From a virus, in the IMG/VR virus record IMGVR_UViG_3300036760_000324, positions 1-27,382 of that record: a DNA stretch of 27,382 nt. One strand, given 5' to 3'. Under the pieces are notes generated by a model that saw nothing but the letters and a program-made list of their open reading frames with translations, ran no database searches and was not told where the DNA came from. The translations under genes were made by a program, and so were the position numbers. Of the stretch, positions 1,435 to 27,382 are shown piece after piece. Position 1 is the stretch's first letter. Each line of letters begins with the position of its first letter.

Positions 1435-1466
1435 GAGAAGAAGCCCGACAGACGGAGGTCTCAGTC

Positions 1467-3359: not shown

Positions 3360-3381
3360 TAGGGCATTGGAGGGTCGCAGT

Positions 3382-5202: not shown

Positions 5203-5390
5203 TGATCGTTGAACCGATCTTCCACGACGACGGTAAGACTCCGTGGATCGCGATAGGCTGCCCGTTCCAGGGTTGCAAGCACAAGTTCAAGGTCACCTGG
5301 ATGATCCCGACGGGACTGGTGGGTTTCAACCTGATGAACTACCATCTCATGCTGATGATCAAGAAGCACATCATGGCGGAGCACAAGTGA
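5199..5390 (+). CDS. small Cys/His protein, possible zinc finger (63 aa)
   Basis: ATG at 5199 (or the adjacent ATG 5202) overlaps the helicase stop, so it is probably translated by coupling. The only notable pattern is C21-x4-C26 and H49-x7-H57, which could form a C2H2 zinc site, with a hydrophobic Met/Leu-rich helix (NLMNYHLMLMI) between. Function unknown. Its position next to a helicase with its own zinc motifs is consistent with a DNA-binding accessory, but that is inference. Confidence 0.6.
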   Translation: MMIVEPIFHDDGKTPWIAIGCPFQGCKHKFKVTWMIPTGLVGFNLMNYHLMLMIKKHIMAEHK

Positions 5391-5851
5391 TCACCTTTCT
5401 CCCCAGCAAGAACTTCACCGTCTGCTCGAAGGCGCTCGATGATGCGAGGCTTGTCGCGCAGGTCGGTGAGGCGCGCATCATCCTCGAGGCCATCCTCGCG
5501 GGCTCGCAGATCGGGCAACCGGCCTTCGACATGTGGCGTCCGTATCCCGGTCATCTCGCGATCTACGGCCTCGTGATGTGTGGCGAGCACGCGATCCGCT
5601 TCTCCCCTCGCAAGGAGAGGGTCCTTTTCATCCAGCATACGCCTCAATGGTTCTATGCGGAGCAGATCTTTGACACTCGCCGGGATCCGCCGTGGCTCGG
5701 CGACAAGCGCCTCCACCTGTCCCATATCAGAAGTCTCTTCAACAAGGACCCCACGAAGTACGCGAAGTGGCACGACATCGTCAACCACCCCAACGTGCAG
5801 TGCTGTATCGGCTGCAATTACTGGTGGCCAACCCATGCTGGTGTCATGTGA
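5387..5851 (+). CDS. pyrimidine dimer DNA glycosylase-like protein (MSMEG_6728/DenV-related)
   Basis: 154 aa from GTG 5387, which overlaps the preceding TGA; the frame is open further upstream but that part reads as a shadow of the previous gene. The family pattern is clear: T-F-L-P at the N-terminus, then LDDARLVAQVGEARIIL (a variant of L-D-x-R-R-L-x-K-Q-R-x-E), FDMWRPYPGHLAIYGL (M-W-x-x-Y), DPPWLGD and LSHIRSLFNKDPTKYAKW, ending in Y-W-W-P. In T4 DenV this fold removes UV-induced thymine dimers. The Lys-Gln normally seen after L-D-x-R-R-L is Val-Ala-Gln here, so activity is not assured. The Cys-rich end (CCIGC) is an addition. It would act in DNA repair beside the polymerase and ligase. Confidence 0.65.
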   Translation: MITFLPSKNFTVCSKALDDARLVAQVGEARIILEAILAGSQIGQPAFDMWRPYPGHLAIYGLVMCGEHAIRFSPRKERVLFIQHTPQWFYAEQIFDTRRDPPWLGDKRLHLSHIRSLFNKDPTKYAKWHDIVNHPNVQCCIGCNYWWPTHAGVM

Positions 5852-6048
5852 ACTATATCCGTGTAATCGAGATCGACGCGGTAGCCATCCACCCAAAACA
5901 GTTCGGCGGGTGTGGTGGTGATCTGAAGCCAGTTCAACTCTGCTGCGTGAACGGAGATCAGTTCACGCTATGGTGGACCTCCGTCAAGAGCAACACGTCG
6001 CTTGACTTCTATAAGTGCGACAAGTGTGGAGAGATCGTGGCGGCATGA
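5848..6048 (+). CDS. small zinc-ribbon-like protein (66 aa)
   Basis: GTG at 5848 overlaps the upstream TGA (GTGA). The product has a GGCGG segment at about 20-24, a CC pair near 32 and a C-terminal YKCDKCGE, a knuckle typical of small zinc ribbons. No enzyme motif is visible. The tail NTSLDFYKCDKCG resembles the tail of the 8,631-8,921 product (NTSYKCGKCG), suggesting the two share a zinc-binding ending. Confidence 0.6.
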   Translation: MNYIRVIEIDAVAIHPKQFGGCGGDLKPVQLCCVNGDQFTLWWTSVKSNTSLDFYKCDKCGEIVAA

Positions 6049-6230
6049 CGATCCGCGTCAAGATCTACGTCGATGGTCAGATGAAGAAGGTCTTCACGAC
6101 CGACATCAGTGAGGACGAACACATCGGTCTCCAGAACACGCTGGTGATCCCTGTCTGCGGTCGTGAGATCGCGGAGTCTCGGGGTTCGTGGTCCAGGGAC
6201 GTGCGCTGGGAGATAGAGGTGATCAGGTGA
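6045..6230 (+). CDS. small protein of unknown function (61 aa)
   Basis: ATG at 6045 overlaps the preceding TGA (ATGA). The product starts MTIRVKIYVDGQMKKVF and reads as an alternating beta-strand protein with one Cys and a basic/acidic mix, ending W-E-I-E-V-I-R. No known motif was recognised. The tight stop/start overlaps on both sides are the main support for it being a gene. Confidence 0.55.
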   Translation: MTIRVKIYVDGQMKKVFTTDISEDEHIGLQNTLVIPVCGREIAESRGSWSRDVRWEIEVIR

Positions 6231-6451
6231 GTAAGGCCGATGGCAAAGACGGCACGCTCTGCGAGTGCGGTGGTTGGGTTGACTACACTGACCTAGGTTC
6301 CGTCTTCCATCATGAACACAAGGGACTTCCCGAACCGTGGGGAGTGGAGGGTAAGCGCATGAATGGCCTCGAGATGAAGTGCAGCTCGTGTAATCACGGC
6401 GGAACGTTCCGCGGTGAGAAGTGCACAACGTGCGGGGTAGACGTACTGTGA
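6227..6451 (+). CDS. small multi-cysteine protein, likely zinc-binding (74 aa)
   Basis: GTG at 6227 overlaps the preceding TGA. Three Cys pairs are visible: C-E-C near residue 12, C-S-S-C near 53 and C-T-T-C near 67, plus a His pair in FHHEH. This pattern fits one or two zinc ribbons. It is followed by the DNA polymerase gene, again with a GTGA overlap. Function is unknown; a DNA- or polymerase-binding accessory is possible but not shown. Confidence 0.6.
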   Translation: MSKADGKDGTLCECGGWVDYTDLGSVFHHEHKGLPEPWGVEGKRMNGLEMKCSSCNHGGTFRGEKCTTCGVDVL

Positions 6452-8634: not shown

Positions 8635-8921
8635 GCAAACCACTGATCGAAGTCAAGTCCGTCAACGCAGATGGCGTCTTCACGAGGATCACGCTCGACT
8701 TCGATGCGATCTTCGGGATGTCACCTCACCAGTCGAAGGTCCGGCTCGAGGCAGGACCGCAGGTGATCAACGGAGCGATCCTGATGTTCAAGAACGGGAA
8801 GGAGATGTTCGTCACCAACTCGTACGAGGAACTCTCCGACCAGTGGATCAAGCTCACCCACCCGTGCGTCAACACGTCCTACAAGTGCGGCAAGTGTGGC
8901 TTCAGTTGTGTGGACTCATGA
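8631..8921 (+). CDS. small protein with C-terminal zinc knuckle (96 aa)
   Basis: ATG at 8631 overlaps the polymerase stop (ATGA), so translation is probably coupled to it. The first 75 residues look like mixed beta strands without a known motif. The end, YKCGKCGFSC, holds three cysteines in C-x2-C-x3-C, with another Cys about 9 residues before, enough for a zinc site. The ending resembles that of the 66-aa product at 5,848-6,048. Function unknown. Confidence 0.6.
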   Translation: MSKPLIEVKSVNADGVFTRITLDFDAIFGMSPHQSKVRLEAGPQVINGAILMFKNGKEMFVTNSYEELSDQWIKLTHPCVNTSYKCGKCGFSCVDS

Positions 8922-9202
8922 ACAGATACGCGGTGCTCCTCGAGAAGCAGTCCAAGGATGGTGACACCAAGACCCGCTGGTGCATCGCCGGATCTCGCAA
9001 GCATGACATCGACTACGTCGAGGCCACGTGCAACATCAAGGGCAAGCAGTTCGGTGTCACGAAGAACGGTGGACCCGTGGCGTTCATCGCTCAGGCCATC
9101 GTGATCTGGGAGACGGCGGAAGACAAGCTCGACGCTGAGACCCGCGCGATCATCGAGAAATGGGCGAACGGTGACTTCGTCATCGATGCGAGTACCGCAT
9201 GA
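8918..9202 (+). CDS. unknown 94-aa protein
   Basis: ATG at 8918 overlaps the upstream TGA. The product begins MNRYAVLLEKQSKDGD, has two isolated cysteines, and ends in an acidic helix (EDKLDAETRAIIEKWANGD). No recognised motif or membrane segment. Its end overlaps the ligase start (ATGA). Kept as a real gene because of the continuous overlap chain and coding-like composition. Confidence 0.55.
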   Translation: MNRYAVLLEKQSKDGDTKTRWCIAGSRKHDIDYVEATCNIKGKQFGVTKNGGPVAFIAQAIVIWETAEDKLDAETRAIIEKWANGDFVIDASTA

Positions 9203-10131
9203 ACTTCGAACCGATGCTCGCCCAATCGCTGGACTACGAGTACCACGAGGAAACCCTCGAGCCGAAGTTCACCGAGCAGCAGTTCCAATGGGACGCTGAG
9301 GTCAAGCTCGACGGGATCCGCATGCTCGTATACATCGAGCCGAACTGCAACAACTCCCGTGCCCTGACCCGTGTGAAGGGGAAGCACACTGGGGCATACG
9401 CGAACAAAGGTCCACATCTCGCGTGGCTTCGAACAGATGGGTTGGTTGATGATCTCACGGTCCTCGACGGTGAGGTCACGTGGGGCAAGAACTCGCGGAC
9501 CACGATGGAGATCTTAGGGTGCCACGCAAATGAGAGCCTGAGGCGTCAGGTTGAGCTCGGTCCGCTGAAGTTCACCGCATTCGACATCCTCATGGGAGGT
9601 GGTCGGGACTTTCGCTACAAGACCTATGAGCAACGTCGCGACATCCTCCACGCGGTGATGTTCAACCTGAACACCCAGTTTCCCGGCGAGGTTGATTGGG
9701 TGATGCCCGGACCAGCGAAGGCGCTATGGGCAAAGGGTGGCGAAGGCATCATGCTCAAGGAGCCGATGCACAACTACCAGGCTGGATGCCGTTCTCCTTC
9801 CTGGCTCAAGGTCAAACGCTTCAAGAAGTACATCGCCGTGGTGACCGGTTACACGGCCGGCAAGGAAGGTAAGACCGGTCAGATGGTCGGTCTGATGGGG
9901 AGTCTGTGGCTCGGCATGCTAGACCACCGTGGTATCCTGATGCCGGTTGGCGCTGCCGGTACCGGCTTCGGCATGACAGAACGATCTCCGTTGGCGTGGC
10001 CCGTCCGCACAGTTGTGGAAGTGGCCTCATCCGACGTAACCGAGGATGGCAAGCTGTGGCATCCCAGGTTCCTGAAACGACGTCCCGATCTGAGGGTCGA
10101 AGACGCACAACTGTCACAGCTGGGGGTCTGA
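9199..10131 (+). CDS. ATP-dependent DNA ligase
   Basis: 310 aa, ATG overlapping the preceding TGA. The nucleotidyltransferase motifs are all present: motif I VKLDGIR with the adenylated lysine K36, motif III VLDGEV (E92), motif IIIa KFTAFDIL (124-131), motif IV GEGIMLKEP (181-189) and motif V WLKVKRF (202-208). A C-terminal OB-fold-like region ends with W-H-P-R-F-L-K-R-R-P-D (287-297), matching the motif VI area. The length fits the small phage ligases of the T7 type. It seals nicks with ATP during replication and repair and is encoded downstream of the polymerase in the same train. Confidence 0.9.
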   Translation: MNFEPMLAQSLDYEYHEETLEPKFTEQQFQWDAEVKLDGIRMLVYIEPNCNNSRALTRVKGKHTGAYANKGPHLAWLRTDGLVDDLTVLDGEVTWGKNSRTTMEILGCHANESLRRQVELGPLKFTAFDILMGGGRDFRYKTYEQRRDILHAVMFNLNTQFPGEVDWVMPGPAKALWAKGGEGIMLKEPMHNYQAGCRSPSWLKVKRFKKYIAVVTGYTAGKEGKTGQMVGLMGSLWLGMLDHRGILMPVGAAGTGFGMTERSPLAWPVRTVVEVASSDVTEDGKLWHPRFLKRRPDLRVEDAQLSQLGV

Positions 10132-12731: not shown

Positions 12732-13498
12732 AGATCCGCCGGAGTGGGTGGTGCAACGTAGCCGCCCTGACCCCTGTATGGACAACCAACCTGGTTTGGC
12801 GCGTTGGCAAGACCGTTGAAACAAGCAAAGGTCGGGTTCCACCCGCGGTACGCTAGCAGATCGGTTCCGATCCCCGCGGCGAATGCCGGCCAGTTGAGGT
12901 TCCCGGCTTGATCTTCGACATGGTAAAGTGGATTTCCGTAACCGACCTCGACTTGGAAGTGGATTGGGAACCAGGTGTCCTGGTTGCCGCCAGTGAAGAG
13001 GTACTGGTTGTTGTAGCGGATGATCAGGTTACCACCACCCAACCCCAACGCGAACCCGTTTCCGATCCGCGTGAACCCTTGGTTACCTTGCATAATCGCG
13101 CTAATCACGCCAGAGGGTGCGGGACTTGGTTGGGTCGTCCCATAGTACGCGATCATGTAACCACCACGCCAGAGTCCTCTCACCCGCCAGGAGTTGTAGC
13201 ACGAGTCATCACCTACCAGTACCGCCTGTGTGAAGTACTGCGTCAGATCGGCGTTGGCCATGTTGTCGACCCAAAGGTTCGACCACGTGAACGAGCCCAA
13301 CACCGCGGGTCCCGGACCGAGCTCCAAATTGAATGGCGTGTTCTCGAAGTACTGGTAGTAGTCCTCAGCGATCAGCCGCTTGCCGGTGAGAGCCCAGATC
13401 TCTTCCGCGGTCGGGATGTGGAGCGGCTCGTTCTCCCGTGCCGCGAGGAGGTGCGTGACCTCGTCAAGGTACTTCTCTTTGGAGACGTGGATCGCCAT
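12728..13498 (-). CDS. unknown tail-operon protein, Gly/Tyr-rich (256 aa)
   Basis: ATG at 13498 shares one base with the TAA of the upstream hub-like gene. An N-terminal helical part (LDEVTHLLAARE, then PTAEEIWALTGKR) is followed by a Gly-, Asn- and aromatic-rich part (for example FALGLGGGNLIIRYNNQYLF) and a Pro/Gly-rich end. No signal peptide, coiled coil or enzyme motif. The composition and location after the hub-like protein suggest a virion component, such as a tail tip or baseplate part, but I recognise no family. Confidence 0.5.
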   Translation of the reverse strand: MAIHVSKEKYLDEVTHLLAARENEPLHIPTAEEIWALTGKRLIAEDYYQYFENTPFNLELGPGPAVLGSFTWSNLWVDNMANADLTQYFTQAVLVGDDSCYNSWRVRGLWRGGYMIAYYGTTQPSPAPSGVISAIMQGNQGFTRIGNGFALGLGGGNLIIRYNNQYLFTGGNQDTWFPIHFQVEVGYGNPLYHVEDQAGNLNWPAFAAGIGTDLLAYRGWNPTFACFNGLANAPNQVGCPYRGQGGYVAPPTPADL

Positions 13499-16400
13499 TA
13501 GTTAGCTACGCGTGGTCGGATCAGCGGCAGGTACGCGATCCAGGAGTCCGCGACCTTCGTGACCATGACGATCGTCCCAGCCGTGATCTTCGCGGTCGAC
13601 TGAAGCCTGGGCGTCTTCGCCGTGATCGTTTCCGCCTTGGTCTCATCGAAGTCCGCCGTGGTGAAGCGCTTGCAATGGATGTTGTCCTTATCCGCGGTGT
13701 CCGTGCTCACGATCGCGATCCCGTACGGATTGTCGATCGGGAGAACCCACGCGGTCCCGTCATTCGCCACGTAGACCGGCAGCAGTTGCCCGTTGAAGAC
13801 GGAGTTGGTTCCCATCTTCCGACCGATTCGGTTCCCTGCTGACGTGGAGAATGCAGACCCGATCTCGGTCAGCGACATGCTCACGTAGTGGGTCTTCGTG
13901 CGATCCGGACTGACGTAGTTTGCTCCGGACCAGTAACCTGCGTAGTGCGGCATGAGGTATGCGTACTTGGACTCGTTGGAGAATGTGGGGTGGTTCGGCT
14001 TCTTGAAGGTATCCGGCCAGTGACCGGTGTTGGGATCCGCGGTGATCCCGGCCAGGAACGCACCACGGTAGTCGTAGTCCGCGCCAGAGTCTGACGGGGC
14101 GTTGATCAACTTCCACGCCACGAACTGAGACTCCTGCGTGGCGGTCAGCGTGGTGTTCCACCTGGTGTCGTTCGCGCCGGGAACGGTGTCAAACCCAGTC
14201 GGATCTCCATTCTCCTCGACCCGCATCGTTCCAACCATCGTCCCGCCACGTGAGGAGGTCCCGCTCGAACTCCCACCCTTCGTGGCGTAGAACGTTCCGT
14301 CCTCCGCCTTGTGGACAACGATCTGGTCACCCGCTTGGATCGGCGTGCCAGAGATGTTCTGGACCTTCACCTCGGTCTCGTAGACGTCACCGCTCGCGTT
14401 GTTGCTCTTGTAGAGCTTCGCGTTGAAGATGCCACCGATGGGGCCAGCGGGAGTCTCAGCCGTGGTGGCGACGCCCACATGGGTCTGCTTCTCGGAGAGC
14501 CCGAGGTCCAGCGCCGAGACCTCGATGATCTCAGCGATGTCGTCCCCAGCGGTGATAGAGAGCGCGGCAGGTGCTGTGTCCCCGGTGTCATCGAGGTAAG
14601 CTGAATTTGATTGGGTTGTGTTACCGACGACGACCGGGGTCCACAGCAACGCCGTGATCTGGTTCTCCTCTGTGTCATGCTCCAGTTGCTCGATCATCGC
14701 GTTCGTGGTGAGTTCCGACAACGTCGACTTCACGTCATCGTACACCGTCATCGCGATGGCATCGAGATCCCCGATGACACGCAGCTTCCGCCACGCGTTG
14801 GACCACCGGTTGAACCAGAACTGCGCGGTCTTCTGGACGAGGGTCTTGTGCCGGTAGACGAAGATCTCGAGGTCCCGCTTCTTCCTGCCGTACGCGAGGA
14901 CCGATGCAGCATCCTTGTAGTGAAGTCTCTCGGGGTGCTGCTGCGATCCCCTGCGATGCCACGTCACCCACAGGTCGTTGGTGATGTTCGTGGTCTCGGT
15001 CGACGTAACCTGAACCGTTCCCTCGAGCGTCGTGTCATCGTTGTACGTGAACGGGATCGAGGTCGGTGCCACGGACAGGTACTTCAGGTACGCGGTCGAT
15101 CCCAGGACCGAGAGACCGCAGCGACCTTGGAAGGCGATGTCCCCGGCAATCTGCAGCGCGTCCTTCCGCTGGGTGAACGAGAAGTTCATCGGGTACTTCG
15201 TGCAGGCGGCCTTGACCGACGCGAACGAGGTGGAGTCCACCGTGATGCCGGCGTCCGTCATCAGGTCAGCGATGATGTCCGAGACGTTGTCACCCTCTCG
15301 GGTAACCAGCGTCACGAAGAGGTCGTCCTGCCAACCCGTTGCGCGGGCAGACAACGGCTTCTCGAGGGTGATCGTCGTGCAGGCGTGACCAGCCAGCGTG
15401 TCGTTCAGATTGACAGTGTAGAAGTCGGAGGGTACCACAACCAGTTGTCGTTCCCGACCGCCACGACTGTCCAGCTGAACTTCTCGCCAGGCGCGGACCT
15501 GGAGGACGCTTGAAGAACGGCGGTCATTGGCAACGTATACCACGTTGGTGACCAGTCGAATTGAAGTCCCAGCCGGCCATAGGGTATCATTAGCATCCAG
15601 CACACCACGGATGTCGGCTCGCGCTCCCACCGTGATGTAATAGAGTCCGGAGGCAACGATCCAGGGGAACTGGCCACGGGTCGCGTCTCCCTTCTGATAC
15701 AGGATGTAGTTCTTGTAGCCGACGAACGACGGGACGCTGAACGACCCGTAGATGTGGGTAAAGCTCGAACTGTTCACATCGCTGATCGTACCGCCATCAG
15801 AGGCGTTCTCTGTGTCCAGCAGGAACAACCAGTTGCCAGCGAGGATCTTCCCCTGCGTATCCCACGACGAGTAGCGTGGGTCAGCTTCCCAGGAGTTGAA
15901 ACCGTTAGGGTCCTGCTCGATCGTGCTGAGCGTGGACCGCTGGTTCGAGAAAATGATGCCCTTGCTCACGTTGCGAGCATGAACATGGAAGCGGAGGATC
16001 ACGACCGGGTCTGTCGAGATCGACGTGAACGTCCCGGTCAGGTACTCATTTCCGATCTCCACCGTGACCTCGGTGTTGAGCGGGAAGGTAACGTCGTCCG
16101 CAACCTCGATGTCCACGTGGTCGAAGGTGGGTTGAAGTTCCCGGATCAGCGTGCCCTTCGGGGCATCCACGACGAGGACCGCTGGTGCATCGACCGGCGT
16201 ACCGTAGCACCGAGGCCACGGCTTGTTCCACGCGAACTCCTGTAGACCCGAACTTTCGTCCGGTGCGAACGGAACTTCGGTATCACTGTTGCTCTCGTAG
16301 AACGCGACGATGTCCAGTTGGAACGTCCGGTCTTCCTCATTCCAGACGACAGGTGATCCCACCCTTCCGACCATCAGCTCCACTGGGTCGGAGACGATAC

Positions 16401-16698
16401 CATCGAAGATCTGGAGAACCCTGGCAGTCCGTCCCTCGAGCCTAGTCCCACCGATCAGGGTCAGGAAGTAGAAGTCCTCATCGCTCATCTTCACGGAGAT
16501 GCTACCAGCCGTGGCCGGCGCACCTTCCGCGATCTGCATGTTCGCGTTGCCGAGCTCCATGATACGGCCGTCCGTACCGTCGAGGTCACGGTCTGCGAAG
16601 GTGAGTTTCCCGGCACCGGTGTCGATCTCGACGAGCGTCAGGGTCTCGTGGCCATCGGTCGCGGCCGCGAGCAGGTTGGCGGCGCTTACGCTTCTCAT
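13498..16698 (-). CDS. tail hub / tail tip structural protein (1,066 aa)
   Basis: ATG overlaps the stop of the upstream gene (ATGA). The first 160 residues (GSISVKMSDEDFYFLT, VELMVGRVGSPVVWNEEDR, FQLDIVAFYES) resemble the beta-barrel opening of siphophage hub proteins. The middle part has a helical D-N-V-S-D-I-I-A-D-L-M-T-D-A-G-I-T-V segment followed by a domain rich in beta strands, as in gp27-like hub proteins. A Gly/Ser linker (GGSSSGTSSRGG, near residue 810) separates this from a C-terminal half that looks like a separate beta-rich module, possibly receptor-binding. It lies directly after the modular tail protein, where hub or tip genes normally are. Product name is inferred from order and general look rather than from a signature motif. 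Confidence 0.6.
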   Translation of the reverse strand: MRSVSAANLLAAATDGHETLTLVEIDTGAGKLTFADRDLDGTDGRIMELGNANMQIAEGAPATAGSISVKMSDEDFYFLTLIGGTRLEGRTARVLQIFDGIVSDPVELMVGRVGSPVVWNEEDRTFQLDIVAFYESNSDTEVPFAPDESSGLQEFAWNKPWPRCYGTPVDAPAVLVVDAPKGTLIRELQPTFDHVDIEVADDVTFPLNTEVTVEIGNEYLTGTFTSISTDPVVILRFHVHARNVSKGIIFSNQRSTLSTIEQDPNGFNSWEADPRYSSWDTQGKILAGNWLFLLDTENASDGGTISDVNSSSFTHIYGSFSVPSFVGYKNYILYQKGDATRGQFPWIVASGLYYITVGARADIRGVLDANDTLWPAGTSIRLVTNVVYVANDRRSSSVLQVRAWREVQLDSRGGRERQLVVVPSDFYTVNLNDTLAGHACTTITLEKPLSARATGWQDDLFVTLVTREGDNVSDIIADLMTDAGITVDSTSFASVKAACTKYPMNFSFTQRKDALQIAGDIAFQGRCGLSVLGSTAYLKYLSVAPTSIPFTYNDDTTLEGTVQVTSTETTNITNDLWVTWHRRGSQQHPERLHYKDAASVLAYGRKKRDLEIFVYRHKTLVQKTAQFWFNRWSNAWRKLRVIGDLDAIAMTVYDDVKSTLSELTTNAMIEQLEHDTEENQITALLWTPVVVGNTTQSNSAYLDDTGDTAPAALSITAGDDIAEIIEVSALDLGLSEKQTHVGVATTAETPAGPIGGIFNAKLYKSNNASGDVYETEVKVQNISGTPIQAGDQIVVHKAEDGTFYATKGGSSSGTSSRGGTMVGTMRVEENGDPTGFDTVPGANDTRWNTTLTATQESQFVAWKLINAPSDSGADYDYRGAFLAGITADPNTGHWPDTFKKPNHPTFSNESKYAYLMPHYAGYWSGANYVSPDRTKTHYVSMSLTEIGSAFSTSAGNRIGRKMGTNSVFNGQLLPVYVANDGTAWVLPIDNPYGIAIVSTDTADKDNIHCKRFTTADFDETKAETITAKTPRLQSTAKITAGTIVMVTKVADSWIAYLPLIRPRVAN

Positions 16699-19600
16699 GA
16701 CGCCAGGATCCCTTCGAAGTCGAGCGTGAACTGCCCGCCACGGTCACGCGTCTCTTCGGCCAGGTCGATATCCGACGTGGTGATGTACCCGATCCACTTC
16801 CTGTTCTTCTCGTCGAGGTAGTAGATCTTCTTGCCCTTGCAGACACGCAGGAAGTTCCGGACCTGCTCGAGCTTCAGGTAGGAGAGGCTTTCAAAGGTGA
16901 TCGACTGCGGTTCGTAGGTCGGAGTTCTCGCGTGAGGTCGCAGCTTCCCGCCACGGGTCCGGTTGACCTTCACCTGCAGCGCTTGTCTCCGGGAGTTCCC
17001 GTATTCCGGCCGCTTCAGCTGAACCGTGAGGCTCGGCGACGGGAGAGGCCCGATCAGGTAGACGATGTTGACGTCGTCTTCCGAGGCAGGCAACGGTCGC
17101 TCAGGGGTGAAGCTCGGCTGGCAACCCTCATCCGCCTTCATGGCCACGAGGCCGACGAAGAAGTTCAGCACGTTGGACATCGTCTTCTTCAGGCTGGCGT
17201 TGTACGTGACCCGGGAAACGAAGGCGATGGACTGCGAGATGGTCTGACGCTTGATGATGTTCGCAACCAACACCCCGGAGAACGCGATGCTGTTGGTGAC
17301 CGTGCTCGAGACCACGCGGTTCAGGCGTGAGGTGAAGTTGATGGTCTGCGAGATCGACTTGATCGGGGACTTGATCCCGGAGAGCAGCGAGGTGAAGTTG
17401 ATGGTATGATGGATCGGCTGGGTGTTCAACGCAGCCTCGAGGTGCTGCTGGAAATCGATCGTCCCAGCCATCGTCCTCGTTCGCGCGAAGTTCAGACGTT
17501 GCGTGAAGTTCAAGACGGACGAGAGACCGATGCCGCGGATCGCCGACAGGGCCGACGTGAACGTGATCATGTTCGAGAGAACGCGGCGCTGGGTCGACAA
17601 GATGCTCGTGAAGTTGAGCGTGGTCTCCATCGCAGCCGCGTTGCCCGAGATGATATCTGAGGAGTAGAAGTATTCCTCCGATCCACGCATCGATCCCACC
17701 ACACCACGCGTGTAATTGAAGGACGAACCGTAGCTCGGACCGTGGACCGTGTTCACTGAGTCGCGGGTATTGGTCGTGATGTTCTGCAACGCCCAGGTCC
17801 CATCCGACCCACGCTTGGCGTAGACTGAGTAGTAACCCAGCCCGCTCGAGGACCAGCAGACCACGGCGGTGCGCTGGTTCAGCGAGAGCGAGGGGTATTC
17901 CTGATCTGCATCCACGTCATCGTGAACATACTCCACCGCAGCCCACGTGGTCGTCCGCTTGTAGTACGCCAGACGAACGCGACTCGTGTAGAGCGTGCTC
18001 CGCTGGCGGCAGGCGACGTGGACGTAACCCAGGTCGTCAACCGCGATGGAGATGCCCGAGTGGAAGTCACCGATGTTGTTGCCACCGTACCCGGTCGCGA
18101 TCGTCTCCTCGGTACCCCACGCTCCACCGCTGTACTTCCGATAGAAGAGCGTGTGGGTTGAGGAAGACCTGATCGAGTAAACCGCGTGGACATTATTCGA
18201 GGCATCCACGCACGCCGCAACTCGCCTGTACTTCTGCGGTCCCGTTCCGCTGGAGTCACCGTTCTTGATCTGCAACGACGTCCAGCTGGTCAGGTTCGTG
18301 GAGGTCCAGCAGTAGACCCGGCGATCTCCGGTCGACGTGATGTACCCGGAGACCAGCATGTAGGTCGTGCCGAAGTACAGGATCTGGACGCTCTCGGACT
18401 CCGCGCTCGGGGAGTTCAGCTGCTTCTTCAGGACCCACGTCGTCCCGTTCCACTGGTAGATGTAGAAGTCGTCGTTGCTCGCCTTGGTGAGGACGAGGAT
18501 CGGTGCGTCACCGGCTCCGATCGCGATCGCCATTCCGGTCGGGACCCACGTGGGTCCGACGGTGACCACGGTCCAGGTGAGACCGTTATCGCTGGAGTAG
18601 GACGTCTTGGTATACCCACCCTCGTAGTACACGTGCCACAGGACTCCGGCCGCCGTCTTGACGATCTGCCGGCCACCGCCCTGGATCTTGGTCACCGTGC
18701 TCGCGGTGATGCTCCGGATGATGAAGCCCTGCAGGCTGAGGGTCTGGCTGAAGTTGATCGCCTGAGCGATCGTCTTACTGAAGGTTTGAACGATATCGCT
18801 ATCGTTGATCGCCAGAGCAACGGAGCCGCCATTCGAGTTTGTCGGCGAGATGGTCTCATCCGAGTCGAGGTTGACCGAATCGTTCACAGCCCAGGTCTTG
18901 CCGTTCACCAGGTCGGAGTTCTTCGAGATCCCGGCACCGGTTCCCGCACCGGTCAGAGCGCACGTTGGCGAATCATGCGCTCCGTTCGTGCGGAGATACC
19001 AGTTGCTCGTCTTCGCCGCGCCGGGGCCGTTGAGCATCCAGACGTAGAACGCATGGCAATAGAACGTGCCAGGCATGTTCCAGCGAGTCGGACCCGTGCC
19101 GTCGAAGGGGTCAGTCGATTGCGGGTTTTGGTTCACCGAGAGGTTGTACGGTCCGCCCGGATAGAAGGCCGTCGCAGCATAAGTGCGTGGGTTGACGGTC
19201 GTGTTCCCACCCAGGTAGAACCAAACCGGTTGACCAACGCGGGTACCGCTCGGTACGAACCTCATTGAGTGTGAGCAGTTGAAGCTAGGGAAGGCGTCCG
19301 TGTGAACGGCCCTGATCGAGACGAGGTCACCCTTGACTACGGAGATGCTGTGGGTCAGGTCGCTACCTTGGGTAGCGAGAGCCGCCATTACAGCGACGAC
19401 TGTCGAGTCCACGCTATTGACCCGGACGGTGGAGGTGAGCGTCTTACCCGACGCCATCCCCGTGGTGACGTTGTTGTAGAGTTTGTCGAGCACACCGTCG
19501 CAGGGCATCACGAACTGGACGTTGGACTCCGTCACGCCCGAGGTCCCGGACTTAGCGCATACGGCGTGGTACATCGTCTGTGCCGACTGGTTCAGCGGCC

Positions 19601-20003
19601 CCATCGTGACGCTGCACTCACCCGCGGTCGTCGGGGTGAAGATGAAGCTAACCGCGTAGACGCGGAGGACGCTGCCGTTGTTCACGCACTGGACAGACAG
19701 CACGTCACCAGCGACCACGGCGACGCTCCCTGTCGCGCTGATCGTGGAGGTACTCGCCAGAATGGTGCAGGTGAGACCGGTCGAACTGCCGTTCTTGTAG
19801 AGGGTGAAGACGGACGTGCCCGCTCCGGCTGCGGTGAGCTGACGTACTGAGATCTTGGTGAAGTTGCCTGCGAGTGACCACACGCTCTTCATGTTTGTGA
19901 TAGAAGCGTTCGCAGTCGCCGTCCCATTGAGATCGTTGTAGACCGTCGCGAACGCGCCGACACGCATGCCACCCATGAAGAATGGGATCGTGGTCAATGA
20001 CAT
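16695..20003 (-). CDS. modular tail protein with propeller-like domain and nine-copy repeat (1,102 aa)
   Basis: ATG at 20003 with AGGAG about 10 nt upstream on the minus strand. The first 400 residues are Ser/Thr/Val-rich and beta-like. Residues about 430-780 contain an Asp-box (S-S-D-N-G-L-T-W, near 472) and repeated Y-x-x-W-type strands, as in sialidase/BNR propellers. Residues 796-952 are nine copies of a 17-20-residue repeat with the core [LI]-x-F-x-x-x-[LV]; a related single copy (INFSQTL) lies near 415, before the propeller. The last 145 residues form a separate domain with ESLSYLKLEQVRNFL and KKIYYLDEKNRKWIGYI, which looks like a tail attachment domain. The protein probably combines a fiber-like part with a tail-tip anchor. 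It has no visible catalytic triad. Confidence 0.65.
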   Translation of the reverse strand: MSLTTIPFFMGGMRVGAFATVYNDLNGTATANASITNMKSVWSLAGNFTKISVRQLTAAGAGTSVFTLYKNGSSTGLTCTILASTSTISATGSVAVVAGDVLSVQCVNNGSVLRVYAVSFIFTPTTAGECSVTMGPLNQSAQTMYHAVCAKSGTSGVTESNVQFVMPCDGVLDKLYNNVTTGMASGKTLTSTVRVNSVDSTVVAVMAALATQGSDLTHSISVVKGDLVSIRAVHTDAFPSFNCSHSMRFVPSGTRVGQPVWFYLGGNTTVNPRTYAATAFYPGGPYNLSVNQNPQSTDPFDGTGPTRWNMPGTFYCHAFYVWMLNGPGAAKTSNWYLRTNGAHDSPTCALTGAGTGAGISKNSDLVNGKTWAVNDSVNLDSDETISPTNSNGGSVALAINDSDIVQTFSKTIAQAINFSQTLSLQGFIIRSITASTVTKIQGGGRQIVKTAAGVLWHVYYEGGYTKTSYSSDNGLTWTVVTVGPTWVPTGMAIAIGAGDAPILVLTKASNDDFYIYQWNGTTWVLKKQLNSPSAESESVQILYFGTTYMLVSGYITSTGDRRVYCWTSTNLTSWTSLQIKNGDSSGTGPQKYRRVAACVDASNNVHAVYSIRSSSTHTLFYRKYSGGAWGTEETIATGYGGNNIGDFHSGISIAVDDLGYVHVACRQRSTLYTSRVRLAYYKRTTTWAAVEYVHDDVDADQEYPSLSLNQRTAVVCWSSSGLGYYSVYAKRGSDGTWALQNITTNTRDSVNTVHGPSYGSSFNYTRGVVGSMRGSEEYFYSSDIISGNAAAMETTLNFTSILSTQRRVLSNMITFTSALSAIRGIGLSSVLNFTQRLNFARTRTMAGTIDFQQHLEAALNTQPIHHTINFTSLLSGIKSPIKSISQTINFTSRLNRVVSSTVTNSIAFSGVLVANIIKRQTISQSIAFVSRVTYNASLKKTMSNVLNFFVGLVAMKADEGCQPSFTPERPLPASEDDVNIVYLIGPLPSPSLTVQLKRPEYGNSRRQALQVKVNRTRGGKLRPHARTPTYEPQSITFESLSYLKLEQVRNFLRVCKGKKIYYLDEKNRKWIGYITTSDIDLAEETRDRGGQFTLDFEGILAS
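17148..17618 (-). repeat. protein-coding tandem repeat, nine units of 17-20 codons
   Basis: Units begin at residues 796, 813, 831, 849, 868, 888, 906, 926 and 946 of the 1,102-aa protein. Each has Phe at the third position and Leu or Val four residues later; the best-conserved core is INFTSxL. At DNA level the plus-strand string GAGGTGAAGTTGATGGT occurs at 17329 and again exactly 60 bp later at 17389, but other units have diverged, so this is an old protein repeat and not a fresh DNA duplication. Confidence 0.75.
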
Positions 20004-20955: not shown

Positions 20956-23900
20956 TCACTTCCTCCTGGTGAGAGCGGGTGCTTCGCCACGCTCGATGTG
21001 CCTGTGAATGTCCCTTGCCAGCTTCCGAGCATCTGCCTTCTTCGGCCCGCCATCACCGCCGGCATTGATGGTAGTGCCCCGCATGTCCACGTTCGTCGTA
21101 TTGCTTGTGTTGTTCTGCGTGCTCTTGGGTTCCGACGGTGTGATCGCCGGGGTTCCCTGCATCAGCAGGTTCTTCAGGTCCACGTCCTTCAACTTCAGCA
21201 GCAACTCGTCTGGCGCAGCGCTCAGCTCGAGCCGGAGTTCCTTCGCCTTCTCGATCATCTTGTCCAGGGCATTCAGAGCTGGATCGGATTGGACATTGAT
21301 GAAGAACTGGCTATCGGCCTCCAACTTCATGATCTTCTCTTTGATCGCCTTGAGCTTCTCGTCGGTCGGAACCTTGCCCAATTCCTCGAGCGCGCGACCC
21401 ACATCGGTGATACCCTGCTCGAATGACTTGAAGTGGGCCTCAACGTTGTTGGCCGCAGTGGTGAATGCCTTCTCAGCCTTCTCCGCCGTCTTCATCCGGT
21501 CTTCGATCGCGATCTTCTCTGCGCCGTAGACCTTGTCCATCTCTCCGCGCAGGCGAGTCAGTGCGTCGATGACCTTGACGCGGTTTTCCTTGGTGTTCGC
21601 ACCCTCGACGTTGAGGATCGACTCGTAGATCCCCGATGCCTCTTGCACGAGGCGCTGGACCTCGTCGCGATCGCCGATCTTCGCGGCCTTGTTCGCGCGG
21701 GCTTCGAGTTCCTGACCACGATCGATCCGCTGCTTGACCTGTTCGGCCGGCGTCCGGTCCGCGTCCTTGATCTTCTGGATCGTCTGCTCGACCGCGTCGT
21801 CGTACTTCTCCTGGTCCTTGACGAGGTCCTTGAGCTGCGCCTTCATCTTGCTGACCATCGACTTCTGCTCTTCAGCAAGATGACGATAGCCGGAGATGAT
21901 GCCCTTGATGGTATCGCGGTTGTCCGTGAGCCACTGCTTCAGCTGCTTGCCGCCGTCCTTCACCTGGTCGGTTATCGTGTCCGTGAAGATCCGCTTGAGC
22001 ATCGCGGACTCGTCACGCTTCGGGTTCAGTTCCTCTTGCGCCTTCTTGAGTTTCGCGAGATCCTGCGCAGCCTTCTTCGCATTGCCACCGTTCAGGGCCA
22101 TGAACTTCGCGAGTTGCTCTTGGTCATCCGCGGCCTCGCCGGTGACCTGACCAAGGTCCGCGATGTCCTGCTCGAGCTTCTGCACCGACTTGCGGTTTGC
22201 GTCCATCCCAGAAGCGTTCCACGCACTGACCCAGTCAGTGGTGAATGCGTCGGCGGCCCGCTTGCCTGCGGCGGCGAGACTTTCCACGGCACCATCCGCA
22301 AGTCCTTCGAAGGTCTTCTTGACCCTCTCCTGTCGCTTGAGGATCTCCTCGTCGCCGGTGTACTCGTACATCGCCTTGTTGTACTGCTCGGCGATCCACA
22401 TCGCGCCTGCGCCGATGCCCTTGAAGATCATGGCCCACACGTTGCCGAGAGCCACGATGAGGTCAATCACTGCCTCGAAGGCACCGATCAGGATCATTGC
22501 CACGGCCTCGAAGGGTGCGATGAAGAGACGAACCGCGAGTTCGATCCGCTTGAACGCCATCTCCATCTTCCGCATCGCGTTCTCAACGCCGCCCGAGCTG
22601 GTGATCCAATCGTTGAATGTCTTCATCGACGATTCACCGAACTCGATCATCGAGATCTTGAGTTGTGCCATCAACCGGTTCCACTTCACCTCCGTGGTCT
22701 CCATCATCTTCTTCGTGGCTTCGTCGCCCACGCCGATCCGGTTGGTCAGGTCCTCCATGATGGACTTCAGAGCTTCGAACTGGGAGCCGGTGATCTCACC
22801 CCACGCCCTCAGCTCGCGGAAGTCGTCGGTGATCTTCTCGATCAGACCTGGGTTCTTCTGCAGGGCGTCGTGGATCTTCTCGATCTGCTTCAGGAGACCC
22901 TGACCCTGGACGAACTCCGGACCAGTGGCGATGCCAAGAGCCTTCATGATCTTGACGGCTTCGGGACCCTGCTTCGAGATGAACTTGAAGAGGTTGATCG
23001 CCATCGTACCAGCCTGCTCGGGACCCTTGGTACGAGAGAGCGCGGCGAACACGGCGAGCATCTCTTGCACGTTCACGCCAGCGGTCTTCGCGACGGCGGC
23101 CATCTTGCCGATCTCACCCGCGAACTGATCCACCTCCACGCGACCACGGTCGGTCATCACGAAGATCATGTCACGCAACCGACTGAACGAATCCGTGCTG
23201 AGGTTGAACGCGTTCTTCATCATCGCGAGCATGTCGGCCGACTTCTCGATACTCACGTTCTGGGCGACGGACAACTTGCCCGCCTCCTCCATGAACTTCA
23301 TCGCTTCTTCCGGAGGCACGTCGCTGGAGATCGCGATCCGGAAGCCCTCAGCCGAGGCCATCGGCGAGAAGCCGAATTCCTTCGAGAGGCGCTTCACCTG
23401 CTCGGTGAGTTCGGGAAGCGTGGCCTCACCGTCCTTGACGAGGGTCATGATCCTGGCCATCGAGTGTTCGAACTCGATTGCGCTCTTGGCTGCGAGACCG
23501 ATCACCGCGCCACCGAGCATCGCCAGGAGACCACCTACCGAGGAGGTCATGAACGCGACCGCGTTGCCGGCTCCCTGGACCGCTCGACCGAGGGCGAGGA
23601 AGCCCTTCGAAGCGAGGGACGTTCCCTTCTCCATCGCCTTGAAGATCGCGCCGACCTTCGCCTCACCACCGACCCAGTCACGCATGTTGAACAGGTCGCG
23701 GGTCCAGATGCCCTTCGCGGAACCGATATACTTCTTTGCCGTCTGGTCCGGCATGCGGGCGTACATCTGATCCATCTCACGGTTCGAGAACCTCGCATGC
23801 CGACGCTCGGTCTCGAGGTCCTGCTTCCGCTCCAGCGCGTGCATCTGCTCACGAGCCTTGACCGCCTCGTTCAGTCGCGCCCTCATGAGACGGTAGTGAT

Positions 23901-24687
23901 CGAGCTCCGCCCTTTCCTTGTCCTTGATTGCGGTGAGCTCATCCTTGTCTGCAAGTTTCCGTGTGCTGGAGATGTCCCTGACGTGTTCCTTCAACTGATC
24001 GTGGTACATCTGAAGGCGCGCCATGTTGAGGCGCACCTTCTCGTCACCCATCATGATGGACGGGATCTTGAGCTCGTCCTCCCCGATCCCACCCTTCGCC
24101 GCGGTCTTCTTGATCTTCGCGATGGCGCGGTGGTACGCGATCGACTCGAGGTCCTGGTACGCCATCGGGTCGTTGGACTCGTACACGCTCGCGGAGCGTA
24201 CACGACCGCGGATCGGTTCGCCGGTGGAACCCAGGATCTGACCGCGCATCTCACTTGCGCGTGCCGAGGTCGTGGCCTGAACTGCCCTGACGCGCTCCAT
24301 CGCAACCGCGAGCCGGTCAGCGTCGATCGTCGCCTTCTCCCACGCGGCACCCAGGTGCTCGTAGGAGACGATCGTGGACTCGTTCCCCGCGAGGATGGCG
24401 CGGATCTGCGAGTTCATCTGGGACTCGGTCGATCCCAGGACTGACTGCACCTCCTCGAGGGTGGTGCTTCCCGCAGCGAGGAGTTCGATCTGCTCCTTCA
24501 CCACGGCAGACGCGATGCCCATCGTGTGGATTGCGGACGCGGCGTCGAGCGACTTCTCCTGGACGGCCTTGAGCTTGGAGTTCAACCGATCCATGAACCC
24601 AATGAACTTCGCGGCCTGCTCTTGGGTCTTCTGGAACCCATCGCCGCCGGCGTTCACATTCACAGAGAAGTTTGCGTCGTCACTCAT
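20956..24687 (-). CDS. tail tape measure protein (1,243 aa)
   Basis: ATG at 24687 overlaps the end of the frameshifted chaperone reading frame. It is the longest gene of the tail module, follows the chaperone pair and has the usual tape-measure make-up: long Ala/Lys/Glu/Gln helices at both ends and hydrophobic stretches near residues 380-405 (SSVGGLLAMLGGAVIGLAA) and 714-766. A central part (about 405-640), with FEHSMARIMTLVKDGE, FGFSPMASAEGFRIAI and AGVNVQEMLAVFAALSRTKG, matches the conserved core of TP901/phage minor-tail tape measure proteins. It sets tail length and is ejected with DNA; at about 0.15 nm per residue the tail would be roughly 185 nm. No peptidase or lysozyme motif was seen. 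The string N-A-G-G-D-G appears near both ends. Confidence 0.9.
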   Translation of the reverse strand: MSDDANFSVNVNAGGDGFQKTQEQAAKFIGFMDRLNSKLKAVQEKSLDAASAIHTMGIASAVVKEQIELLAAGSTTLEEVQSVLGSTESQMNSQIRAILAGNESTIVSYEHLGAAWEKATIDADRLAVAMERVRAVQATTSARASEMRGQILGSTGEPIRGRVRSASVYESNDPMAYQDLESIAYHRAIAKIKKTAAKGGIGEDELKIPSIMMGDEKVRLNMARLQMYHDQLKEHVRDISSTRKLADKDELTAIKDKERAELDHYRLMRARLNEAVKAREQMHALERKQDLETERRHARFSNREMDQMYARMPDQTAKKYIGSAKGIWTRDLFNMRDWVGGEAKVGAIFKAMEKGTSLASKGFLALGRAVQGAGNAVAFMTSSVGGLLAMLGGAVIGLAAKSAIEFEHSMARIMTLVKDGEATLPELTEQVKRLSKEFGFSPMASAEGFRIAISSDVPPEEAMKFMEEAGKLSVAQNVSIEKSADMLAMMKNAFNLSTDSFSRLRDMIFVMTDRGRVEVDQFAGEIGKMAAVAKTAGVNVQEMLAVFAALSRTKGPEQAGTMAINLFKFISKQGPEAVKIMKALGIATGPEFVQGQGLLKQIEKIHDALQKNPGLIEKITDDFRELRAWGEITGSQFEALKSIMEDLTNRIGVGDEATKKMMETTEVKWNRLMAQLKISMIEFGESSMKTFNDWITSSGGVENAMRKMEMAFKRIELAVRLFIAPFEAVAMILIGAFEAVIDLIVALGNVWAMIFKGIGAGAMWIAEQYNKAMYEYTGDEEILKRQERVKKTFEGLADGAVESLAAAGKRAADAFTTDWVSAWNASGMDANRKSVQKLEQDIADLGQVTGEAADDQEQLAKFMALNGGNAKKAAQDLAKLKKAQEELNPKRDESAMLKRIFTDTITDQVKDGGKQLKQWLTDNRDTIKGIISGYRHLAEEQKSMVSKMKAQLKDLVKDQEKYDDAVEQTIQKIKDADRTPAEQVKQRIDRGQELEARANKAAKIGDRDEVQRLVQEASGIYESILNVEGANTKENRVKVIDALTRLRGEMDKVYGAEKIAIEDRMKTAEKAEKAFTTAANNVEAHFKSFEQGITDVGRALEELGKVPTDEKLKAIKEKIMKLEADSQFFINVQSDPALNALDKMIEKAKELRLELSAAPDELLLKLKDVDLKNLLMQGTPAITPSEPKSTQNNTSNTTNVDMRGTTINAGGDGGPKKADARKLARDIHRHIERGEAPALTRRK

Positions 24688-25398
24688 CTTCAGGCACCTT
24701 TTCCTCCATGCGGAGGATAGTGTAGGCCATCAGCTCGACTTGCTCGTGGTACTGCAACTCGTTCCACGGTCTGCCGTAGTAGCTACGCGGATCGACCATC
24801 TCAACGGCGCGCAGCTGCCAGTACTCCAGCGATCTCCCAGAGTTCTTGGGGATCGGCTTCGGCTTCGCCGATCCCCTAACCCTGGGAGCGATCAGTTTCC
24901 CTTGGCCACCTCGATGTCATCCGCGATGTTCATGAGGCTAGTGATCTCGGACATCAGCCGACCGAGATCGCCCATCGTGAAGCCGAACGCGATGAGCTTC
25001 TGCCAGATGCCCTCGTAGAACTCGGGCTTCGTCTTGTCCTGACCCTCGATCTCGAAGTCGACGTTGGGGTCGTCGATCCCGTGGTAGATGATGTACGCCA
25101 TCCGGAGCTGCGTCATCTTGCGGTTCGCCGTGGTCCACTCCGGGGTCTCCACGTCGACGATCATCGTCTTCTTCGTGTCGGGATCCCGGATGAGGACCCC
25201 TTCGGGGTTCTTCGCCCACTGCTGAGGCTTCGGAGCTTCCGGGAAGAGCTCGAACATCTTCGAGTCGACCCCGACCGGAAGCGCCCGGACGCGGATCTGG
25301 AGCATCTCCTCCCCGGCTCCGTCGTCCCCGGAGGTCGCACGCTTCAGCGTGACGACCTTCCGGGGCGTTTCGAACTTCTCTTTGCCACGGATCTTCAT
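24680..25398 (-). CDS. tail assembly chaperone fusion (gpGT-like), made by -1 frameshift
   Basis: Translation starts at ATG 25398, follows the short-form frame to the slippery heptamer GGGAAAC (minus strand, 24901-24895), slips back one base, and continues to TGA at 24682-24680. The extension adds 71 residues, beginning LIAPRVRGSAKPKP and ending EEKVPEDE, for about 239 aa in total. The extension frame has no ATG, GTG or TTG before its middle, so it is only sensibly reached by frameshift. Its stop overlaps the tape measure start. Position directly ahead of the tape measure is exactly that of lambda G/GT and its many relatives, where the long form links to the tape measure during tail assembly. 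Confidence 0.8.
24834..24901 (-). promoter_or_regulatory. programmed -1 frameshift signal: GGGAAAC plus two-tier stem
   Basis: In minus-strand RNA the 0-frame reads AAG GGA AAC TGA, so G GGA AAC is a canonical X-XXY-YYZ site just before the stop. A 6-nt spacer follows, then an outer 7-bp stem (CTCCCAG, 24888-24882, with CTGGGAG, 24840-24834). Inside it is a perfect 10-bp stem (GGGGATCGGC, plus-strand 24848-24857, with GCCGATCCCC, 24867-24876) and a 9-nt loop. Spacer length and the slippery site match known phage tail-chaperone signals. Confidence 0.82.
24892..25398 (-). CDS. tail assembly chaperone, short form (gpG-like, 168 aa)
   Basis: ATG 25398 is chosen for AAGGAG placed 7-8 nt upstream; the frame is open to 25434 without a better site. 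The product starts MKIRGKEKFETPRKVV, has a Lys/Arg-rich first part, a middle TKKTMIVDVETPEW, and a helical C-terminal half containing GIWQKLIAFGFTMGDLGRLM. It ends K-G-N at the slippery site. No family motif is strong enough for a call by sequence alone; the assignment rests on its place between tail tube and tape measure and on the frameshift element at its end. Most ribosomes should make this form. Confidence 0.75.
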   Translation of the reverse strand: MKIRGKEKFETPRKVVTLKRATSGDDGAGEEMLQIRVRALPVGVDSKMFELFPEAPKPQQWAKNPEGVLIRDPDTKKTMIVDVETPEWTTANRKMTQLRMAYIIYHGIDDPNVDFEIEGQDKTKPEFYEGIWQKLIAFGFTMGDLGRLMSEITSLMNIADDIEVAKGN

Positions 25399-25447: not shown

Positions 25448-25960
25448 CTAGACGCCGCGGGTGCTGGTCGGCTCGAGCGCAGCGCAGATGCCCGAGTACG
25501 TCATCATGTCGGCGTTGTCGCCCTCCTCGAACCCCACCTCGTCGCAGTGGTAGTCCGGGAACACGAGGCGCTCCGTCTGGTCGATGCCCGACGCCGCGCA
25601 CGGGTTGGTGAGGTCGAACCTCACGTCGACGCAGTACGGGCCGCAGTCCAGGCTGGAGACCCACGCCGAAGCGTTGCCCTTGTTGCGCAGCGCGTCGGGA
25701 ACGGAGGGGATCGTCGCGTACGCGGTGAGCGTACGGCCGCGCCACTCCTCGAACTTCGCCGAGAACGAGACGTTCATCGGCTCCTCGTTGCCTTCCGCGA
25801 GACCGGCGACACGGCCGCGGTTCATGATGACCTTCGCGGGCCGACGGACGCTGAACCGGAGGTTCCCGTCCTCGATGGGGACCACGAGGGTCTTCGGCGT
25901 CGTGCTGCCGTCGACCAAGGTGATCTGCCCGTTGGTCAGATTGCGAGTCCTCTGGCTCAA
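25448..25960 (-). CDS. major tail (tube) protein candidate (170 aa)
   Basis: The start is TTG at 25960, preceded by AGGAGG; no nearby in-frame ATG has a ribosome site, and the upstream gene's TAG overlaps this ribosome site. The product has an even beta-strand pattern (ITLVDGS, LVVPIEDGNLRFSV, PMNVSFSAKFEEW) with a Cys-containing loop (DCGPYCVDVRFDLTNPC) and a GFEEGDNADMMTYSGICA end, in keeping with a tail tube fold. Codon use is highly biased, as expected for an abundant protein. Position between the tail terminator and the chaperone is the standard place of the tube gene. A TTG start on an abundant protein is uncommon. Confidence 0.7.
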   Translation of the reverse strand: MSQRTRNLTNGQITLVDGSTTPKTLVVPIEDGNLRFSVRRPAKVIMNRGRVAGLAEGNEEPMNVSFSAKFEEWRGRTLTAYATIPSVPDALRNKGNASAWVSSLDCGPYCVDVRFDLTNPCAASGIDQTERLVFPDYHCDEVGFEEGDNADMMTYSGICAALEPTSTRGV

Positions 25961-25969: not shown

Positions 25970-26464
25970 CTAGGCCGATGCGATTAGCACAGCCTGGAAC
26001 GTGACAACTACGCTGTGGATGTTACCTTGCTCCACTGCGAAATTGCCTTGTCCTTGAAACGTGATGTTGCGACGCGGCAGGTAACTTTGCCTCGCCTCCT
26101 TGATCTGAACTGCACCGAGGACGGTCTCCGGAGGAATACCGACCATGCTCAGCGGCACGTCAACCTTTTCGAGCGTCTTCCTGACCAGTGCCGCTAGTCT
26201 GAAAGGCGCCATCGTGTCCTTGTCATTCCGGGACTCTTGAAGCCGGGCGTCACAGACGATCTCGAAGAGAAGTAGACCACCCCACACTCCCCTACGGGTA
26301 CGCATGCGGGCGTCACCCATCGGGTTGAAGGTCACCCACTGCTCTTTGCCATCGGTGTCCGGCCGCATGCCAGGACCGATGAAGTGAACCGTCGGCATCT
26401 GCTCGCGCAGGTAGGCCTGAACGGAGAGCCAGGCGTAAACCTCCAGATCGTCAGGAACGCTCAT
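25970..26464 (-). CDS. probable tail terminator / tail completion protein (164 aa)
   Basis: ATG at 26464 overlaps the stop of the upstream gene (ATGA). The sequence has an N-terminal helix (EVYAWLSVQAYLREQMP), strands around WVTFNPMGDARMRTRRG and GLLLFEIVCDARL, then FRLAALVRKTLEKVDVPL and a C-terminal strand HSVVVTFQAVLIASA. This alternation of a helix, strands and a middle helix resembles phage tail-terminator (gpU/gp17-like) proteins. Main support is gene order: between the gp10-like protein and the tail tube. Confidence 0.6.
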   Translation of the reverse strand: MSVPDDLEVYAWLSVQAYLREQMPTVHFIGPGMRPDTDGKEQWVTFNPMGDARMRTRRGVWGGLLLFEIVCDARLQESRNDKDTMAPFRLAALVRKTLEKVDVPLSMVGIPPETVLGAVQIKEARQSYLPRRNITFQGQGNFAVEQGNIHSVVVTFQAVLIASA

Positions 26465-27382
26465 GGCTTCTTTCTCTCAGCCTTGGTGCGTTGCTTGAAC
26501 TCCGGGGTGCCGAACTGGCTCCACGCGTTCTGCAGCTCTTGTGCCTGTCGTTCGAGTTCTGACCTCGGCGACCTGACGTGCTGAACCACCGTGCGTGACT
26601 CGGTCCTCGTCCCGGAGATGTGACCCGCGAAGGTCTCTCCACTCCACTTGACCTTGGTCGTCGACCTGACCTGGCGGCTCTCGAAGATGTGCGTCGGCTC
26701 GTTGAACTCACCAACCGAATGCCAGTCCTTCGGGTCGTTGATCCGCATCGCGAGGTACGCGTCTGCGTTGAGGTGAGAAACGTTCCTGTCGAGCGGGAGA
26801 CGAGCTGCGAGTTCCGAGTAGAGACGGCGCCACGTGAGCGAAGGGAGCTTCGCTTCCAGCTCGTCCAGGCTGATCGGTTGGCCGGTTTGAGAAGCTTGAT
26901 CCCACCTGAAGCCGCGAAGTCTGTACTTCTCGTTCATCCACCACGTGGTCATGGTGTCCAGCAGGTTCCGCAGTTCGGTCTTCAACGCGAACATCGTGAC
27001 GCGGACCATGCCTTGCGGGGCTTGCTTCGAATGTCCGTGCTCCAGGAAGAGCATGTAGCCCACATCCGTCCCGATGCGGAAACCCACGCGACCGAGCTTG
27101 AACTTGCCCTTGCCGCGGATCTGCGGGGAGAGACGCCAACTGGCCGCAGCCTTGCCCGTCTCGTAGGGCGTGAGGTACACGACCTCCATGAAAGCCCAAC
27201 GGGCCGCGTGCCAGACCACGAAGCGTGCCCCGATGTGCGGAAGTCCGGCCATCGCCACGATGCGACCGAGCTCCATCTTGATCGCGCTGATGTCGACGAG
27301 ATCGTCCTTCTTGCCGAACTTGTCGTAGGGCGACATGCGGAACTGCGCGCCCACGGTGATGCTCGGCAGGAGACCGAAGTCT
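26461..27382 (-). CDS. HK97 gp10-like head-tail joining/tail completion protein (5' end probably outside window)
   Basis: Minus-strand frame stays open to the right edge. A GTG at 27354 and an ATG at 27336 exist but neither has a ribosome site, so the true start is probably beyond 27,382. The hallmark is Y-L-T-P-Y-E-T-G-K-A-A-A-S-W (about residues 60-73 from the GTG), then GRVGFRIGTDVGYMLFLEHG, which matches the P-x-x-T-G-x-L-x-x-S and Y-A-x-x-x-E-x-G core of HK97 gp10-like proteins. The C-terminal 150 residues go beyond the usual family length and look like an extra domain. Gene order supports a role at the head-tail junction. Confidence 0.6.
   Translation of the reverse strand, partial: DFGLLPSITVGAQFRMSPYDKFGKKDDLVDISAIKMELGRIVAMAGLPHIGARFVVWHAARWAFMEVVYLTPYETGKAAASWRLSPQIRGKGKFKLGRVGFRIGTDVGYMLFLEHGHSKQAPQGMVRVTMFALKTELRNLLDTMTTWWMNEKYRLRGFRWDQASQTGQPISLDELEAKLPSLTWRRLYSELAARLPLDRNVSHLNADAYLAMRINDPKDWHSVGEFNEPTHIFESRQVRSTTKVKWSGETFAGHISGTRTESRTVVQHVRSPRSELERQAQELQNAWSQFGTPEFKQRTKAERKKP

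Follow-up and report, generated by a model that had tools for sequence, protein, structure and literature searches.

Does the tail chaperone gene of this virus give rise to one protein or to two? Programmed -1 frameshifting in the chaperone gene is long known in tailed phages. The stretch analysed here, the 27,382 nucleotides of IMG/VR record IMGVR_UViG_3300036760_000324 (hereafter the window), from an uncultured tailed phage, raises the same question at the end of an open reading frame that precedes the tape measure gene. We consider it very probable that the element found there is a signal for programmed -1 ribosomal frameshifting, of the kind known from phage lambda G/GT, the slippage itself being what we infer from its parts. 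The genes concerned all lie on the minus strand and are, in the order in which they would be read:

26461 to 27354, minus strand: tail completion / Neck1 protein (phrog_169, E 1.4e-7)
25448 to 25960, minus strand: putative major tail (tube) protein, named from its position upstream of the chaperone gene
24892 to 25398, minus strand: tail assembly chaperone ORF, gpG-like, 168 aa (ATG at 25398, UGA at 24894-24892)
24680 to 24895, minus strand: -1-frame extension, gpT-like, 71 codons plus UGA, proposed to be read only after a slip
20956 to 24687, minus strand: tail tape measure protein, 1243 aa (PHROG tape measure families, best E 5e-28)

The identity of the chaperone rests on fold, position and frame because no sequence match was obtained. 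Searches of PHROG, Pfam and PDB sequences linked the ORF to no known family and gave nothing useful for its -1 extension, the Foldseek viral library held no match at E <= 0.001, and a phage collection searched as DNA and as protein returned no match to the region, the chaperone ORF, the extension or the capsid protein. A scan of genome contigs yielded a single 22-residue match, in a Moraxellaceae MAG (L022). The AlphaFold model of the ORF (pLDDT 78.7) finds its best structural match in the HK97 tail assembly chaperone 2ob9 (Z 8.5, 99 residues, rmsd 4.5), followed by YqbN 3klu (Z 7.2), with the next row falling to 2.8. An AAGGAG precedes the start codon at 25398. The assignment of the upstream ORF as a tail assembly chaperone, with a predicted fold closest to that of HK97, is supported; an earlier note on this DNA, made from the letters alone, had called it a tail chaperone gene, and both the predicted fold and the tape measure gene downstream agree with that naming.

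Besides the Neck1 gene, two upstream genes fit a tail terminator and a tube protein by position. The presumed tube protein is 84-91% conserved in close relatives and has no family match. The resulting gene order of tube (by position only), chaperone with -1 extension and tape measure is the one that the gpG/gpGT class requires. On the 3' side of the tape measure gene (13498-20003, minus strand), PHROG gives no significant match for two ORFs of 1066 and 1102 aa, by position putative tail tip or fibre proteins. Facing the tail genes, a replication module on the plus strand (1410-10131) encodes a ParB-like protein, a DNA helicase, a DNA polymerase and an ATP-dependent DNA ligase. Opposite the tape measure gene, an antisense ORF of 1003 aa (21433-24444, plus strand) is probably a composition effect, GC3 being about 0.83; the longest antisense open runs in relatives measure 613 to 1198 codons.

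If two products are made, the second frame should be a coding frame. It runs from CTG at 24895 to UGA at 24682-24680, has 71 sense codons and ends just inside the start of the tape measure gene (ATG at 24687), as the earlier note had described. We compared it with that of L002 (IMGVR_UViG_3300046716_000023), the sole close relative found with the chaperone protein, which is 88% identical. Between the two, codon changes in the -1 frame are synonymous in 14 cases and non-synonymous in 10, the corresponding counts for the other two frames being 4:22 and 4:23; dN and dS in the -1 frame are 0.095 and 0.52 (0.062 and 0.65 on the 3' side of the hairpin described below). Judged by this pattern of substitution, the -1 frame is under purifying selection, that is, protein-coding. 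The extension is conserved in five lineages, and the motifs GRSLxYWQLRAVE and DPRSYYGRPW are shared among relatives.

A coding frame that closely abuts the preceding ORF might also be a separate gene, with its own start or with re-initiation coupled to the stop, the heptamer then being incidental; translationally coupled genes do lie as closely together as these two ORFs. Yet no ATG, GTG or TTG occurs from the last upstream stop to codon 34 in the window (ATG) or codon 29 in L002 (TTG), counted from the heptamer. These first candidate starts stand at different places in the two genomes, with conserved sequence upstream of them, and a separate gene would not require the conserved heptamer and hairpin. 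We regard a separate gene as very unlikely. The claim that the frame lacks a start of its own near its beginning thus holds over some 30 codons, and the frame combines protein-level selection with the absence of an own start, as expected of an extension reached by -1 frameshifting.

How, then, might ribosomes reach it? The minus strand reads ...GAG GTG GCC AAG GGA AAC TGA TCG CTCCCAG..., in which the heptamer GGGAAAC lies in the phase G GGA AAC with the UGA stop of the 168-codon ORF adjoining. An in-phase X XXY YYZ before the 0-frame stop, as -1 frameshift sites require, is therefore present. Through a protein from the capsid region of L002, further relatives came to light; tblastn gives chaperone identities of 65% for L008 and 60% for L011.

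24895 to 24901, minus strand: slippery heptamer G GGA AAC, identical in L002, L008 and L011
24889 to 24894, minus strand: 6-nt spacer UGAUCG, which includes the 0-frame UGA and recurs in L008 and L011

The junction reads AAG GGA AAC TGA TCG in L008 and L011; in L002 the stop comes one codon further on (UCG UAA), and the spacer (UCGUAA) again measures 6 nt before the homologous stem start. GGGAAAC is the sole in-phase XXXYYYZ of the chaperone gene in the window and in L002, L008 and L011, and just two others occur in phase across eight other minus-strand ORFs checked (about 4,600 codons). The heptamer uses GGA, the rarest glycine codon of the window (13%). Most of what had been said of this site in the earlier note is borne out: the heptamer and its phase at the 0-frame stop (AAG GGA AAC TGA, 24901-24895), the 6 nt before the stem, and a C at Z, which is not unusual since KL1 and HCTV-1 also have GGGAAAC. 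It had also made its reading depend on heptamer and -1 frame being kept in relatives, and both are. A Shine-Dalgarno-like GAGGUG, 5 nt on the 5' side of the heptamer in the window and L002, is not conserved in L008 and L011 and was rejected as a frameshift stimulator. Transcriptional slippage is unlikely, the homopolymers of GGGAAAC being no longer than three.

A few nucleotides past the heptamer, where the -1 frameshift class requires an RNA structure, a 55-nt hairpin (24888-24834, minus strand) begins after 6 nt; its stimulatory role is putative. Its parts, drawn from folding and comparison with L002, are:

24878 to 24888, minus strand: outer stem, 5' arm CUCCCAGGGUU
24877, minus strand: A, the 5' side of the internal loop
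24867 to 24876, minus strand: inner stem, 5' arm GGGGAUCGGC
24858 to 24866, minus strand: apical loop GAAGCCGAA, 9 nt, identical in L002
24848 to 24857, minus strand: inner stem, 3' arm GCCGAUCCCC
24845 to 24847, minus strand: AAG, the 3' side of the internal loop
24834 to 24844, minus strand: outer stem, 3' arm AACUCUGGGAG, with three compensatory pairs at the stem top

The outer stem comprises 11 bp including one G-U pair, the internal loop is 1x3 (A / AAG) and the inner stem has 10 bp, so that the whole hairpin contains 21 pairs. Folding bears out the perfect 10-bp inner stem of the earlier note; its 7-bp outer stem was too short, the added pairs being backed by covariation. Indeed, each of the 8 differences between the window and L002 within the 55 nt lies in a stem and is matched by a change in its partner, which gives four compensatory pairs and breaks none; one belongs to the inner stem and three to the top of the outer stem. 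The chance of such placement is 4.9e-6; of 1,000,000 random sets of 8 substitutions, just 706 leave all 21 pairs intact.

With a minimum free energy of -39.8 kcal/mol, the hairpin is the lowest of all 54,656 55-nt windows on both strands. The 106-nt region has a z of -3.8 against dinucleotide shuffles, and none of 200 shuffles folds as well. Since this region is coding in frame -1, we applied a stricter control, in which synonymous codons were drawn at the window's own usage with the -1-frame peptide kept, in 2000 re-samplings. Sequences folding as well numbered 0/2000 for the window, 0/2000 for L002 and 1/2000 for L011. The L008 hairpin is a weak case, only weakly better than its synonymous controls, because 273/2000 re-samplings match its folding. 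L008 and L011 each have a two-tier hairpin whose outer stem begins at nearly the window's distance from the heptamer or 2 nt nearer to it; the register of its 3' partner is off by 2 nt relative to the window, and the inner helix is relocated. Strict covariation, at homologous positions, was consequently drawn from the window/L002 pair alone. On these alignments the architecture of the hairpin is conserved across L008 and L011, and its individual pairs are not. A pseudoknot was sought by eye, and the apical loop gives at most three pairs with downstream sequence.

So stable and GC-rich a hairpin could in principle be a transcription terminator or some other RNA element. No T tract follows it, however; a terminator scan found none at this place on the minus strand, and the hairpin matches no Rfam family. 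It is also part of a conserved coding frame and begins 6 nt from an in-phase heptamer, and each of the four close members has a hairpin at this position. We regard a role other than frameshift stimulation as extremely unlikely.

Taking the frameshift signal as the preferred reading, most ribosomes would terminate at the end of the chaperone ORF, on the UGA at 24894, and release the 168-aa gpG-like protein. The hairpin 6 nt downstream would obstruct the ribosome while GGA and AAC are held by their tRNAs, and in a minority of passages both tRNAs would re-pair one base back (GGA to GGG, AAC to AAA). Slipped ribosomes would read past the stop for 71 further residues, and their product would be a gpGT-like fusion of 239 aa (...KGN-LIAPRV...PEDE). 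During assembly both products would chaperone the tape measure protein, and the extension would bring in the tail tube protein, after the model of lambda. There the ratio of G to GT is about 30:1; the tape measure is bound by G and the tail tube protein by T (PMC5009743). We infer that ribosomes slip here, how often they do so and how the two products share the work, the last from lambda G/GT. An AAC site may be inefficient on bacterial ribosomes, given that in E. coli A_AAA_AAC is a far poorer slip site than A_AAA_AAG; on mammalian ribosomes, G_GGA_AAC is among the most shifty sites (PMC5009743). The covarying 21-bp hairpin thus offers a good test of whether strong structure can offset a heptamer that is possibly weak on bacterial ribosomes.

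The likeness to lambda G/GT lies in the position before the tape measure gene, the -1 direction, a GGGAAAN near the end of the 0-frame ORF and an extension frame that ends at the tape measure start. In contrast to lambda, Z is C and not G in the window, the extension has no sequence match to lambda T, and a hairpin of -41 kcal/mol stands where lambda has no significant structure within 62 nt (mono-shuffle z +1.7, against -7.6 in the window). Burkholderia phage KL1 has GGGAAAC directly before the UGA of the short product of gp18/gp19 (PMC3483164), adjoining the stop as in the window; KL1 differs in its weak downstream structure, in an extra gene before the tape measure and in proteins that are not detectably related. 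Profile comparisons revealed no relation, either between the chaperone and KL1 gp18 or between the extension and lambda T. The haloarchaeal virus HCTV-1, likened here from its published description, has a G_GGA_AAC site (PMC5009743), the same heptamer in the same kind of gene, but it is an archaeal virus. GGGAAAC as a slip site is already known from KL1 (PMC3483164) and HCTV-1 (PMC5009743), and so is not new.

Folding of the 62 nt past the heptamer gives -41.1 kcal/mol for the window, -46.0 for L002, -29.3 for L008 and -33.1 for L011, compared with -14.5 for lambda, -7.9 for KL1 and -20.1 for AH2. The hairpin is unusually strong among the few sites compared; the earlier note's view of a stem more elaborate than most stands as far as these three known sites go. 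By analogy only, with no relation by descent, the arrangement resembles the HIV-1 element in its two-stem model, in which, downstream of a slippery heptamer, a purine-rich break separates a lower from an upper stem (PMC12249494). The HIV-1 heptamer is another one, and its lower stem is reported to be flexible and unstable (PMC12249494), whereas in the window both stems are strong.

How far does the arrangement extend beyond the close relatives? A profile of the putative capsid protein found 80 loci, and profile searches detected the chaperone and -1 extension in L014 and in L029-L031, the latter three sharing the same junction sequence and counted as one. All keep the -1 relation and lack an early start codon. 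A single-base indel arising in assembly or sequencing can, as is generally known, produce a -1 frame change near a gene end, and might have split one continuous gene. The same frame relation nevertheless recurs in the independent contigs L002, L008, L011, L014 and L029-L031, and the junction has a heptamer and a covarying hairpin, leaving a negligible probability for such an error.

In L029-L031 (L030:14020-14260), U UUU UUG takes the place of GGGAAAC; it is in phase and precedes the stop by six codons. L014 (12100-12420) has the conserved start-less -1 extension with no canonical XXXYYYZ before the 0-frame UAG; its nearest candidate slip site is U UUU (TCT TTT GCA TAG), and about 16 nt past the stop stands a strong hairpin. 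One may speculate that frameshifting is kept while its parts turn over, an AAC that may be a weak A-site slip codon on bacterial ribosomes being offset in one branch by a very stable two-tier hairpin, UUUUUUG serving another branch and L014 managing without a canonical heptamer, possibly on U UUU; we hold this to be rather unlikely as it stands. The frameshift reading as a whole extends lambda-type G/GT frameshifting to a phage group that has no isolate in the phage collection searched and whose chaperone has no sequence match to known chaperone families, and it provides a clean natural set for comparisons of the heptamer, its hairpin and the protein of the -1 frame. A modest further interest attaches to how strong the hairpin is and to how the slip site turns over in the wider group. 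A heuristic heptamer scan before long ORFs in more distant loci gave GGGAAAG, GGGAAAC, AAAAAAC and AAAAAAA, as candidates only. In one distant capsid relative (31% identity; L099:12847), GGGAAAC stands directly before a UAG with an 8-bp stem nearby, in an ORF whose homology to the chaperone is putative.
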